The notes beneath the pieces are model-generated. The model was not told the origin of the DNA, made no database searches, and saw only the letters and a program-made list of their open reading frames with translations. Position numbers and translations under genes: made by a program. Of a DNA stretch of 64,000 bases, positions 45,786 to 57,142 are shown in pieces. Each line of letters opens with the position of its first letter. Within the stretch, counting starts at the first letter, position 1. The DNA comes from Pontibacter ummariensis. Its GTDB lineage: Bacteria > Bacteroidota > Bacteroidia > Cytophagales > Hymenobacteraceae. Where the stretch lies: positions 62,001 to 126,000 of the forward strand of contig NZ_FZOQ01000014.1 of NCBI RefSeq assembly GCF_900188175.1, given 5' to 3'.

Positions 45786-45845
45786 GTGCGGAGGGTATAG
45801 CTAGAAACTATACAAGTGCGGAGGGTATAGCTAGAAACTATACAA
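45786..45845. repeat. Two exact tandem copies of a 30-bp repeat
   Basis: Units 45786-45815 and 45816-45845 are identical, starting GTGCGGAGGGTATAG and ending AACTATACAA. Each holds a GTATAG/CTATAC stem with a 7-nt loop. They lie between the convergent GT22-like and GtrA genes, where weak hairpins could slow transcription. Confidence 0.95.
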
Positions 45846-45856
45846 GTAAGCGTAAC

Positions 45857-46252
45857 TTACCTGGCAAACGTGTACAGGTAGTTTAAGGAGAAGTTCCAGA
45901 AGAAAACGAATACGATGGCGCAAAACTTGGCGACGTAAAAGTTAAGTCTTGCCCGGTCGGTAAGCAGGTAAACGATAAAGTTGTTGAAGAGGAGCCCTAT
46001 CAGTGCCACCATCAGAAACTTGGAGTACTGCCAGCCAATTTCCGGATCTGCGCTGTGGAAGGTCCAGATGCGGTTAAGGTAATAGTTGCTGGCGCTTGCC
46101 AGCAGAAAGCCCAGGCTGTTGGCGATGTACTTATTCCAGCGCAACTTCTCCTTCGCCACGTAGGTCGCCCCGAAGTCAAGCAGCAAGCCGGTAAAGCCCA
46201 CCACACCAAACTTCATAAACTTAAAGAAAATACTGTGTAAACTCTCCGGCAT
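45857..46252 (-). CDS. GtrA family membrane protein
   Basis: 131 residues with four membrane segments, the full length of a GtrA domain. The opening FFKFMKFGVVGFTGLLLDFGATY (about 9-31), NYYLNRIWTFHS near 55 and SLNYLYTF at the end are typical. GtrA-like proteins are thought to flip polyprenyl-linked sugars or support polysaccharide assembly, which fits the convergent neighbouring glycosyltransferase that would use lipid-linked donors. The link is contextual only. Confidence 0.9.
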   Translation of the reverse strand: MPESLHSIFFKFMKFGVVGFTGLLLDFGATYVAKEKLRWNKYIANSLGFLLASASNYYLNRIWTFHSADPEIGWQYSKFLMVALIGLLFNNFIVYLLTDRARLNFYVAKFCAIVFVFFWNFSLNYLYTFAR

Positions 46253-46603: not shown

Positions 46604-46716
46604 AGGCATACTTGTTTAAGGTGAGATATAAGTAAGTATTATGCCTATCAGCCACCCACAACCATACCTGACATTACAAAACAAAGCCACTCCTGCTGGG
46701 AGTGGCTTTGTTATTT
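46604..46716 (+). ncRNA. Candidate structured small RNA, copy A
   Basis: The stem AGGC+ATACTT (46604-46613) pairs with AAGTAT+GCCT (46634-46646, 3-nt bulge) around a 20-nt loop GTTTAAGGTGAGATATAAGT. About 33 nt later a 14-bp terminator hairpin ends the element. The 27-nt core is repeated at 56364-56390 with one difference, in the same orientation and again before a terminator. No open reading frame runs through it. The loop includes AAGGTGAG, similar to a ribosome-binding site. Function and promoter are unknown. Confidence 0.5.
46680..46715. terminator. Bidirectional terminator hairpin after RNA copy A
   Basis: A 14-bp stem AACAAAGCCACTCC/GGAGTGGCTTTGTT with a 5-nt loop. It would end RNA copy A on the plus strand and the DUF937-like gene on the minus strand. 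Confidence 0.85.
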
Positions 46717-46751: not shown

Positions 46752-47201
46752 TTACTTAAACAGGCCCCCTAACTTATTGCCGATGCCTTTACTAATCGCG
46801 TCTTTCACGCCTCCTCCGCCAAGCAGGCTTCCGAGAATCTCCGTTTGCCCCATACCCTCTCCTGTAACTTTGCTCGAGAACTTGTTCATGATAAAGGTGA
46901 TCACAAAAGGGGCTATTTGCTTGGCCATGGTTTCAGGGATACCTAGTTTCGTAGTCAGGTCGCCGATGTACTTGTTGATGGCCCCACCAACCGCCGGGCT
47001 CTCTGTCGGTCCTTTATGCCCTTTCAATACATCCATGATACCACCAAAATCTCCGTTACTGGCGCGGTTTGTCATTTCATTTTTCAGGTTATCCTTTGCC
47101 AGGTCTACTGCCCTGTTCGCCTGGCCTGAATCCAGGTTATACTTATTCTGCAGTTCTCCTGTCAGCTGTGTCTTCAGGTTATTAATGATGTTATCTAACA
47201 T
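46752..47201 (-). CDS. DUF937-like small protein
   Basis: 149 residues from MLDNIINNLKTQL; the upstream in-frame stretch (MYTQKTNKAIL) is less typical. The sequence has a helical N-terminal part with QLTGELQNKYNLDSGQANRAVDLAKDNL (here about residues 10-37), a Gly-rich middle and a C-terminal LGSLLGGGGVKDAISKGIGNKLGGLF that recalls DUF937/YidB-like proteins. No signal peptide is visible. The function is unknown. It faces RNA copy A across the shared terminator. Confidence 0.7.
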   Translation of the reverse strand: MLDNIINNLKTQLTGELQNKYNLDSGQANRAVDLAKDNLKNEMTNRASNGDFGGIMDVLKGHKGPTESPAVGGAINKYIGDLTTKLGIPETMAKQIAPFVITFIMNKFSSKVTGEGMGQTEILGSLLGGGGVKDAISKGIGNKLGGLFK

Positions 47202-47399
47202 AATGCTGTTGTTTAAAATGGCTTTGTTTGTTTTCTGCGTGTACAATTACCTCTTCCGGCTTGCTACACTTTCTTTATTCTAACGAGAAAAAGCTGCATA
47301 GGATATTTTGCGAGCGTAGCAGGGAGCATGCGAGGCAGCCGGACTGATTGGCAAAGTAATTGCACCGTTTTGCTACAAGGGCGTTTACCCATTATTTTA

Positions 47400-55080: not shown

Positions 55081-56082
55081 CTACTTGCTAAAGGGAAGCA
55101 GGCGTTTCCAGGTACCCTTCATGTAATTGTACTTAAGGGTACTCGGCAGTGCTTTCCAGAAGTATTTGTTCACCTCCACGGCAAAACTGGGCTGCATGTA
55201 GCAATTAATCGTACAGCCCTCACAGGCGGGCAGCCGCCCCTCCTGCCGCTTTAACTCAGCTACCTCCTGGCTCCTGTACAGCGCAAGCAAGTTCCCTTTA
55301 ATAGGAAAGCGCTTGGTCCCTAAATGATAACAGGGCAACACCAGTTCATTCTCCGGCGATATAACCAGTGTCGTACTCGCCGCCTTACAAACAGGCTTCT
55401 CCACATGGTTGCCCCCGTCGCGTCGCAATTCCACAAAGCCCTCGTTGAGGTACACTTGCGGGCGCCGGCCAAAGGCTGCCAGGTAATCCAACTCCTCAGG
55501 GGTCAGGTTTTCGCCAGTCTCCACCTCGTTGTACTCGAAGGCAGGGTTTATAATGAGCAACAGCTTATTCGGCAGGATGATTTTCTGGTACACCTCCTCC
55601 AACTGGTGCAGGTTCTTCCGGAACACGGTAAACAGGATGTCTGGCCGCTCCCGCAACTCCTTGGCTACCTCTATAGACTTCATCACTAAGTCATAGCAAG
55701 GTACCCCACGGCCGGTGTCGTGTTCCTCCCTGTCAGCAGAGTCCAGCGAAAAATGCAGCATGTCTACTTTTCCCTTCAGCCGCTCTGCCAGCTTAGGATA
55801 GAGCATGCCGTTGGTGGTAAGCGTGGTAATAAACCCCATGTCATGCGCCATACCCAGCATGGCGTCTATCTGCCGGTGCAACAGCGGCTCTCCGCCTGTG
55901 AAATCTATCACCTGTACCCCCAAGCGTTTCAGATCCCGCAGGTTCTGCGCCACATCCTCTAACGTAATGTAAGGCGACGGTTTCTCCCAAATATCGCAGA
56001 ACGAGCACTTGGCATTGCAGCGGTAGGTAACATAGTAGTTGCAAAGCACAGGTCTGGAGGTAAGGCGCATAGTAGGGAGCAT
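55081..56082 (-). CDS. Radical SAM protein with C-terminal cysteine cluster
   Basis: 333 residues; the start may be Met1 or Met5. The radical SAM ligands are Cys22, Cys26 and Cys29 in RCNAKCSFCDIW, followed by FTGGEPLL near 62 and TTNGML near 91. The C-terminal part has further cysteines in KPVCKAAS, LPCYHLG and ACEGCTINCYMQ, consistent with a SPASM-like auxiliary cluster. The enzyme family modifies peptides, proteins or small molecules; no precursor peptide gene was found nearby. It lies upstream of the carbonic anhydrase on the same strand with a 102-bp gap. Confidence 0.88.
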   Translation of the reverse strand: MLPTMRLTSRPVLCNYYVTYRCNAKCSFCDIWEKPSPYITLEDVAQNLRDLKRLGVQVIDFTGGEPLLHRQIDAMLGMAHDMGFITTLTTNGMLYPKLAERLKGKVDMLHFSLDSADREEHDTGRGVPCYDLVMKSIEVAKELRERPDILFTVFRKNLHQLEEVYQKIILPNKLLLIINPAFEYNEVETGENLTPEELDYLAAFGRRPQVYLNEGFVELRRDGGNHVEKPVCKAASTTLVISPENELVLPCYHLGTKRFPIKGNLLALYRSQEVAELKRQEGRLPACEGCTINCYMQPSFAVEVNKYFWKALPSTLKYNYMKGTWKRLLPFSK

Positions 56083-56356
56083 GTAACATCAAAATTAGGA
56101 ATTATGTACGGGAAGCAAAGCGAAATGTCGGCCTGGCTCCCAGGCAGGACGTGTAACAGCACCTAAAAGCACAAGCCCCCTCCCCCTTGTTCTGGTGCTT
56201 TAAACTAAAAAACGTCTGCCCAACCTAATAAAAAGGAGTTTGTCTACGCTTTTAAGGATGTTATGAAGAAAACCTGGGGCTTCGTCTAAAATAGCTTTCA
56301 GAGTTCGCTGAAAGCATTACTTTTGCACCGCTCTGTTAAAGCAGGGCTAGAGTAAA
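56083..56356. other. Intergenic region upstream of RNA copy B
   Basis: About 270 bp between the radical SAM start and the RNA-like element. It includes an 8-bp hairpin GCTTTCAG/CTGAAAGC at 56294-56315. No gene was supported. Confidence 0.45.
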
Positions 56357-56457
56357 GGTATAACTTGTTTAAGGTGAGATGTAAGTAAGTTACCGTTCCT
56401 ATTATTCTATCTACTACCAAACGCAGAAGCCGCACCTCGTGTGGCTTCTGCTGTTTT
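56357..56457 (+). ncRNA. Candidate structured small RNA, copy B
   Basis: The stem GGT+AACTT (56357-56366, 2-nt bulge) pairs with AAGTT+ACC (56387-56394) around the 20-nt loop GTTTAAGGTGAGATGTAAGT, the same loop as copy A except for one base. A 13-bp terminator hairpin follows 28 nt later. It lies 77 bp upstream of an outer-membrane protein gene but ends in its own terminator, so it may be an independent RNA or a leader that ends early. Confidence 0.5.
56423..56457 (+). terminator. Terminator of RNA copy B
   Basis: A 13-bp stem GCAGAAGCCGCAC/GTGTGGCTTCTGC (one G-T pair) with loop CTC, then TGTTTT. Confidence 0.85.
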
Positions 56458-56533: not shown

Positions 56534-57142
56534 ATGAAAACGTTGATGATCGTGGCAGCAATTGTGCTGTCGACAGGTGTGGCTGCCAAGGCCCAGTTTT
56601 TTCAGGCCGGTGTTAAGGCTGGCCTTAGTACAACGAACGTTAAGGTAAGCGAAGTCCGCAACAATCCTTTACAGTATAAAAACCCGGAGAATGTGACCGG
56701 TTACCATGCCGGCTTCTTTGCCCGCTTACAGGTTGCCGGTATCTTTGTGCAGCCAGAGGCTCTCTTTACCTCTACAGGAGGCACCATAGAAGTGACTGAC
56801 AACTTTAACATCCAGAATGTGCAGGTAGAGGAGTTTGAGTTCGACCGGCTGGATGTACCTATCATGGTAGGGTATAACTTCTTTAAGGTACTGCGTGTGC
56901 AGGCCGGCCCTGTTATCTCCCAGCTCATAAGCGCCGAACAGGAAAATCAGGACATAGAAGAGTTTCTAAACAACTCCGATTGGGGCTACCAGGCGGGCAT
57001 AGGGATTGATGTGTGGAATCTGACTGCCGACGTGCGCTACGAACGCATAAACCGTGACTATACAAACACCCCGCAGCAGAGTGGCATGAAACTGCAAAAC
57101 GACCAGTTTGTCGTGAGCCTTGGCTATAAGCTGATTAAATAG
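56534..57142 (+). CDS. Outer-membrane beta-barrel (porin family) protein
   Basis: 202 residues. A signal peptide (MKTLMIVAAIVLSTGVAAKAQ) precedes a small eight-stranded barrel of the Bacteroidota PorT/OMP_b-brl_2 type: FQAGVKAGLSTTNVK, GYHAGFFARLQ, IFVQPEALFTSTGG, LDVPIMVGYNFFKVLRVQAGP and a last strand ending VVSLGYKLIK. The protein would sit in the outer membrane; its role is unknown. RNA copy B with its own terminator lies just upstream. Confidence 0.88.
   Translation: MKTLMIVAAIVLSTGVAAKAQFFQAGVKAGLSTTNVKVSEVRNNPLQYKNPENVTGYHAGFFARLQVAGIFVQPEALFTSTGGTIEVTDNFNIQNVQVEEFEFDRLDVPIMVGYNFFKVLRVQAGPVISQLISAEQENQDIEEFLNNSDWGYQAGIGIDVWNLTADVRYERINRDYTNTPQQSGMKLQNDQFVVSLGYKLIK

Follow-up and report, generated by a model that had tools for sequence, protein, structure and literature searches.

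We analysed a stretch of 64,000 nucleotides (nt) from Pontibacter ummariensis (contig NZ_FZOQ01000014.1, positions 62,001 to 126,000; hereafter, the window), which contains two copies, A and B, of a short non-coding element that we consider a probable small RNA (sRNA) gene. An earlier reading of the letters alone (the sequence-only reading) had pointed to a 27-nt repeat with one mismatch and to an intrinsic terminator 3' of each copy. Both claims were borne out: CTTGTTTAAGGTGAGATATAAGTAAGT at 46611-46637 and CTTGTTTAAGGTGAGATGTAAGTAAGT at 56364-56390 are one base apart, on the same strand and in non-coding DNA both times, and terminators follow at 46680-46712 and 56423-56451. A 21-nt core, with as many as 3 mismatches tolerated, has two occurrences in the window compared to 0.01 expected, and none of 100 shuffled sequences had two. 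The copies comprise the following features, where MFE stands for minimum free energy.

46604..46646, + strand: copy A, predicted seed-displaying hairpin (MFE fold; z -3.7 for the whole 127 nt)
46611..46626, + strand: copy A, putative seed CUUGUUUAAGGUGAGA, antisense to UCUCACCUUAAACAAG (its complement precedes start codons)
46616-46626, + strand: copy A, core TTAAGGTGAGA, identical in 39/39 aligned members, in part by selection, as the core also served to pick these 39
46619-46628, + strand: copy A, 10-nt loop AGGTGAGATA (MFE fold)
46680..46712, + strand: copy A, intrinsic terminator (predicted fold; scan for terminator-like hairpins)
56318..56325, + strand: copy B, box TACTTTTG of the TAnnTTTG type (box in 13/13 copy-B loci)
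56361..56392, + strand: copy B, predicted seed-displaying hairpin (MFE fold; z -3.1 for the whole 121 nt)
56364..56379, + strand: copy B, putative seed CUUGUUUAAGGUGAGA, the same as in copy A (complement before start codons)
56369-56379, + strand: copy B, core (motif scan and member alignment)
56372-56381, + strand: copy B, 10-nt loop AGGTGAGATG (MFE fold)
56410..56418, + strand: copy B, linker TCTACTACC (read from the alignment of copy-B loci)
56423..56451, + strand: copy B, intrinsic terminator (predicted fold; scan for terminator-like hairpins)

The exposed 20-nt loop of the sequence-only reading differs from the best fold, which has a loop of 10 nt: in both window copies, G-U pairs (CUUGUUUA / UAAGUAAG) prolong the stem and the loop AGGUGAGAUR remains. 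The upper stem is weak, and three members (L003, L006 and L021) adopt other structures when each is folded alone.

The RNA family and its two loci

To search for relatives, a covariance model of the seed hairpin (R1) was built from 28 sequences and run on 50 Pontibacter genomes. It gave 49 hits in 35 genomes, with one to six hits per positive genome; the window's own genome has six, five of them with a terminator. A terminator-like hairpin lies at most 125 nt 3' of 46 of the 49 hits, covering all 35 genomes (that of L308 is weak), and the hits lacking one are G095:C1, G005:C37 and G000:C38. Across 39 members, 7 of the 12 terminator pairs keep pairing via changes on both sides. In the alignment (A2), the 5' arm beside the loop is near-constant and the 3' arm more variable; the near-constant arm fits a constraint imposed by targets.

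These further copies agree with the earlier suggestion of a new small-RNA family. Rfam 15, in which the presence of FopS was not checked, gave no match at the gathering threshold in the window, and the eight sub-threshold matches fall in five loci, none of them over copy A or B. A weak GcvB match (E 0.1) lies on the opposite strand of a copy-A ortholog (L028). Literature searches, including searches with the sequence itself, found no description of the family, with most subscription journals lying outside their scope.

A pattern scan of the genome collection with a 20-nt core found 33 stretches, 29 of them in Pontibacter. The other four seem not to be members: those from Roseivirga and a metagenome-assembled genome lie inside long open frames, and the two from Vibrio have no terminator visible by eye. 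Among 150 genomes from other genera of the taxonomic family, there were three hits, one inside a frame of 930 amino acids (L046), one resembling a site before an open reading frame (ORF; L047) and one with a terminator-like match (L048). We also considered that hits lacking a terminator are chance matches and dropped this idea, as many of them are target sites.

Four loci (L180, L204, L216 and L143, the last from the window's own genome) have the core directly 5' of a terminator-like hairpin and lack the seed hairpin, and in L180 and L216 the core seemingly follows the end of a reading frame. These four may be compact members derived from 3' ends. Three other copies of the own genome (C41, C44 and C78; L003, L004 and L035) have a similar stretch before the terminator, consisting of all or part of TTTTAGCTGTGAAGCC, which suggests a recent spread in this species.

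The genes next to copies A and B in the window are the following.

45857..46252, - strand: GtrA-like gene, 5' neighbour of copy A (Pfam PF04138; synteny)
46752..47246, - strand: ORF without a Pfam or NCBIfam match, 3' neighbour of copy A (synteny)
55081..56082, - strand: radical SAM gene, 5' neighbour of copy B (PF04055; synteny)
56534..57142, + strand: outer-membrane beta-barrel gene, 3' neighbour of copy B (PF13568; synteny)

Among 29 Pontibacter core loci of at most 8 kb each, 16 have copy-A neighbours (the GtrA-like gene and/or the ORF at 46752-47246 and its followers), 12 have copy-B neighbours (the radical SAM gene and/or the outer-membrane barrel) and one has neither. Because neighbours are kept in 28 of the 29, we conclude that A and B are two loci maintained across species. 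Two contigs bear both types, as the window does, and in many species the exact-pattern scan finds only one. The possibility that the element is the tail of a mobile element is unsupported, as the host neighbours are kept in these 28 loci; this test rests on synteny, with transposases and terminal repeats not searched and the flanks of the other own-genome copies unchecked.

A TAnnTTTG box, which we take to be the -7 box of the Bacteroidota promoter type, occurs in all 13 copy-B loci, including the window's own, compared to 5% in shuffled sequences. It is positioned 31-36 nt before TTGTTTAAGG in 12 loci and 47 nt before it in the window. With promoter box and terminator, copy B thus has the appearance of a stand-alone gene; copy A shows the terminator only. 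Of four copy-A loci tried, one (L111) has its core 22 nt past the end of a 1226-amino-acid frame, and the RNA of this locus may derive from a 3' end. Six of 12 aligned copy-B loci have the linker TCTACTACC in exact form, three have a variant and three lack it; it may be a protein-binding site.

Two side observations concern the surroundings. Past the terminator of copy-B orthologs (e.g. L007, L011, L015, L107 and L108) there is a sequence like GCACTAACGTATAC, then GTTCGTTAGAACA. A tandem pair of identical 30-nt units (GTGCGGAGGGTATAGCTAGAAACTATACAA) lies between genes at 45786-45845 of the window.

Complementary sites before start codons

Several of the terminator-less hits lie on the opposite strand just 5' of start codons, where the mRNA strand reads TCTCACCTTAA(AC). 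TCTCACCTTAA is the exact complement of the conserved stretch of the RNA, and it is this complement ahead of start codons that led us to a function. The first search pattern was TCTCACCTTAA-N(2-30)-ATG, which we narrowed to N9-14 after the distances were seen to bunch. When the gap could range from 2 to 34 nt, there were, among the matches listed, 72 sites followed by an ORF of 50 or more amino acids, and 58 of them lie at 10-13 nt (loci L005-L105 and L169-L259, including L047 from another genus and L005 and L031 in sRNA genes). The sites in G095 are likewise those among the matches listed.

The pattern TCTCACCTTAA-N9-14-ATG occurs 96 times in the 35 RNA-bearing genomes (2.7 per genome), where at least two matches belong to the RNA itself (G006:C4 in an sRNA gene, G021:C1:1549163 in a compact sRNA-like locus). 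The 15 Pontibacter genomes that lack a model hit have seven matches (0.5 per genome), and 154 genomes of other genera have 26 (0.17 per genome). The reversed pattern, used as a control, gave 7, 2 and 5 matches in the three sets, respectively. At least one site is present in 32 of the 35 RNA-bearing genomes compared to 4 of the 15 others (Fisher p ~1e-5, kinship not removed).

For the description of targets, 91 of the 92 unique sites in the fetched loci were kept; one sRNA gene was dropped, and L046-L048 had been left out beforehand. RNA-bearing genomes contribute 84 sites and genomes without a model hit seven. Sixty-one sites precede an ORF of at least 50 amino acids, representing 27 protein families, 29 precede a short leader ORF ahead of a SusC-type gene and one fits neither group. 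When one site per protein family is counted, the gap is 10-13 nt in 24 of 27. The conserved seed has complements in several mRNAs that are not linked.

The complementarity exceeds the 11-mer. The base at +1 is A in 62 of 91 sites and the base at +2 is C in 68 of 91, matching U and G of the RNA; the backgrounds in the base tests (0.33, 0.17 and 0.2) are assumed values, and many of the 91 sites are orthologous and hence non-independent. With one site per family, C at +2 is found in 20 of 27. The mean pairing extension is 3.9 nt at the sites vs 1.9 nt at 455 displaced positions. In the own genome, the duplex predicted with narK reaches -28.2 (copy A) and -31.7 kcal/mol (copy B), matched by one and none of 300 shuffles, and the SusC leader duplex reaches -30.0 and -29.0 kcal/mol, matched by none of 300. 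For a porin, two (copy A) and one (copy B) of 300 shuffles did as well.

This length of pairing bears on the suggestion that the loop is a ribosome decoy for the anti-Shine-Dalgarno end of 16S ribosomal RNA (rRNA). AAGGTGAG does look like a Shine-Dalgarno sequence, but the mRNA complement reaches at least 11 nt at defined genes, which makes a decoy very improbable. Neither of two patterns located the 16S 3' end in this assembly, so there was no direct comparison with the rRNA. Of the two functions that the sequence-only reading had offered, a trans-acting RNA with a recognition stretch probably stands, whereas the ribosome-related decoy lacks support, the complement seen being at mRNA starts.

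We characterised the targets with a Pfam scan of 30 proteins (about 28 distinct targets) and an NCBIfam scan of eight. The peptidases comprise subtilases (S8), thermolysin (M4) and fungalysin (M36), and the transporters a VC_2705-type sodium/solute symporter, a nucleoside symporter and a NarK-like protein that is under the NCBIfam cut-off. Further targets include an acyl-CoA ligase, a proton pyrophosphatase, a creatininase, alpha/beta hydrolases, a cytochrome c and a response regulator; two scanned proteins have no Pfam match. An M28 peptidase (L257, gap 8) and an alpha-amylase (L192, gap 15) lie just outside the ATG 9-14 pattern, and so do the porins L063 and L152, which have GTG starts. Genomes without a model hit contribute a methyltransferase (L060), a thioredoxin-like protein (L087) and a hydrolase (L010). 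One target considered as a potassium transporter was rejected as such, as Pfam gives only a PKD-like domain in the 601 amino acids read.

The 29 SusC leader ORFs have 8-31 codons, and the SusC-type start lies 293-871 nt downstream. Their products contain LL within the first ten residues in 25 of 29 and LLL in 11 (including the own-genome case, L254, C69). Near-sites at susC starts are present in some loci; the SusC gene at C69 (C69:20272-23484) has the near-site CTCACTTTAAAC at the susC start itself. A looser search of the own genome (CTCACYTTAA, 5-18 nt, ATG) gave nine matches, one of them at copy A, compared to one for the control.

Upstream of the motif, a strict search for TAnn(T)TTG found the box in none of the 29 SusC leaders (1.8 expected). 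In a later scan with one mismatch (at least 5 of 6 letters), a TAnnTTTG box begins 11-18 nt 5' of the motif in 27 of 29, compared to 8.1 in shuffles; the SusC-leader box is thus degenerate and was found at the second try. At this distance, the transcript may begin close to the site.

The box raises the question of whether the motif is instead a DNA operator for a transcription factor at target promoters, reversed inside unrelated terminator-bearing loci. In SusC leaders, the motif would indeed overlap the expected transcription start. However, the other 62 sites have no excess of the box (13 vs 12.3 in shuffles) and nonetheless a narrow distance to the ATG, which suggests translation. In addition, the opposite orientation is scarcer: across the 50 Pontibacter genomes, the 11-mer stands ahead of an ATG 29 times on the opposite strand vs 103 times in the orientation of the sites. 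Several of these 29 matches lie at the same place as RNA genes or oppositely facing sites, and two are second ATGs of one place. Within the RNA loci the motif is antisense, and a terminator comes after it in 46 of 49 hits. We thus regard an operator as quite unlikely.

The same position near a predicted 5' end, where pairing could protect the transcript, would suit an RNA that pairs at these sites to activate or stabilise its targets. The region just upstream of ATG is the expected ribosome footprint, and the sites fall within it. Moreover, the closest studied system, FopS, represses (PMC11697453). Activation is therefore unlikely, in our judgement.

Proposed function

We conclude that copies A and B are probably genes of trans-acting antisense sRNAs that repress the translation start of nutrient-uptake mRNAs. 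The copy-B RNA is predicted to be about 100-125 nt long. The conserved seed UUGUUUAAGGUGAGA, formed by the loop and the 5' arm of a weak hairpin, would pair over at least 11 nt with UCUCACCUUAA(ACAA), which is located 9-14 nt 5' of the start codons of many mRNAs. Such pairing would cover the landing site of the 30S subunit and would thereby repress translation. Many of the predicted targets would scavenge nutrients: SusC-type transporters (via the leader ORF), symporters, secreted peptidases and hydrolases. We infer repression from the position of the sites and from the FopS precedent. The sequences themselves show that the gene family exists and has two syntenic loci, that copy B has the promoter box, that terminators follow, and that complementary sites occur at a characteristic spacing and together with the RNA.

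Several observations weigh against this proposal. First, the sequences imply rather than show that the RNA is made, pairs in the cell and represses, and that a block of the leader ORF lowers SusC. The exact TAnnTTTG box occurs in none of 17 copy-A loci. For 39 members, RNAalifold recovered only the terminator and not the seed hairpin, and the covariation pair counts of this hairpin are not above those of shuffles; our claim is placed on the seed and not on the hairpin. One model hit without a terminator, G095:C1 (L304), is the back of a target site.

Second, the distribution of sites is imperfect. Sites occur in 4 of the 15 genomes that lack a model hit, one of these sites being a SusC leader in G074 (L089), and an exact site is missing from 3 of the 35 RNA-bearing genomes. 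Through possible shared ancestry of the genomes with the RNA, the co-occurrence may rest on few independent events, and the 26 sites in other genera vs five for the control indicate that start regions alone lift the baseline. In the own genome, there are only two exact sites, the narK-like gene (C52) and the SusC leader at C69. The exact motif is found in none of 30 own SusC loci, with 700 nt read in each (out of 32 genes over the cut-off, the C69 gene being excluded, and with a crude start-codon rule under which some starts look wrong).

Third, some duplexes are not exceptional. For L290, none of 300 shuffles matched copy A and 16 matched copy B. At the C69 susC start, 46 of 300 shuffles were as good for copy A and 5 of 300, a modest result, for copy B. 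The duplex stretches extend 30 nt 5' of the motif, and for the SusC leader this region possibly precedes the transcription start.

Comparison with known sRNAs

To our knowledge, the trans-acting sRNAs with known targets in Bacteroidota come mainly from gut Bacteroides. The Pontibacter RNA would add a second family, from a genus far from Bacteroides; its seed is readable, and its predicted targets comprise 27 protein families in addition to SusC. Such a family would suggest that sRNA control of SusC systems arose repeatedly in the phylum. The leader ORFs 5' of SusC genes are a further candidate regulatory layer. As the RNA is present in some Pontibacter species and absent in others, the genus offers a natural experiment in the gain and loss of an sRNA regulon.

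Outside this phylum, the LhrC-type sRNAs of Listeria are multicopy and share a short seed, displayed in loops, for pairing close to start codons; this seed is C/U-rich and targets Shine-Dalgarno sequences. The multicopy loop seed is alike, whereas the Pontibacter seed is G-rich and would target a C-rich site.

GibS of Bacteroides is described as an RNA of about 145 nt with a long single-stranded 5' region and the seeds R1 and R2, which represses two target mRNAs via pairing with their start regions (PMC7366714). The Pontibacter RNA is similar in being a trans-encoded sRNA with predicted pairing to translation initiation regions of metabolic mRNAs.

FopS of Bacteroides thetaiotaomicron is a family of sRNA paralogs with one common seed, termed R1; there are 12-15 copies per genome with a single-stranded 5' seed before the terminator, RbpB binds the RNA, and binding near the susC start halts translation in vitro (PMC11697453). 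With FopS, our family shares paralogs with one seed and a Bacteroidota-type promoter (here for copy B) with a terminator; judged by complementarity, it may also share pairing near the starts of SusC-type and other catabolic genes. Unlike FopS, the Pontibacter RNA has one to six model hits per genome and a seed in a predicted hairpin, with a linker before the terminator and a predicted length of about 100-125 nt. Its SusC site, known from complementarity only, lies at a leader ORF (29 of 91 sites) and not at the susC start. The compact loci L143, L180, L204 and L216 do resemble FopS.

As two FopS features, the single-stranded 5' seed and the 12-15 copies, do not apply, we call the Pontibacter RNA a separate family, going by the features described for FopS. 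By target class and rough site place, it appears to work like FopS, a likeness that does not show kinship. An independent origin is a tentative reading and somewhat less likely than not: here, the lineage-specific sRNA would have arisen apart from FopS, would act as the overall brake on scavenging and would control SusC operons from a distance by shutting off a leader ORF near the 5' end, whose translation would be needed for susC transcription or translation 290-870 nt downstream.
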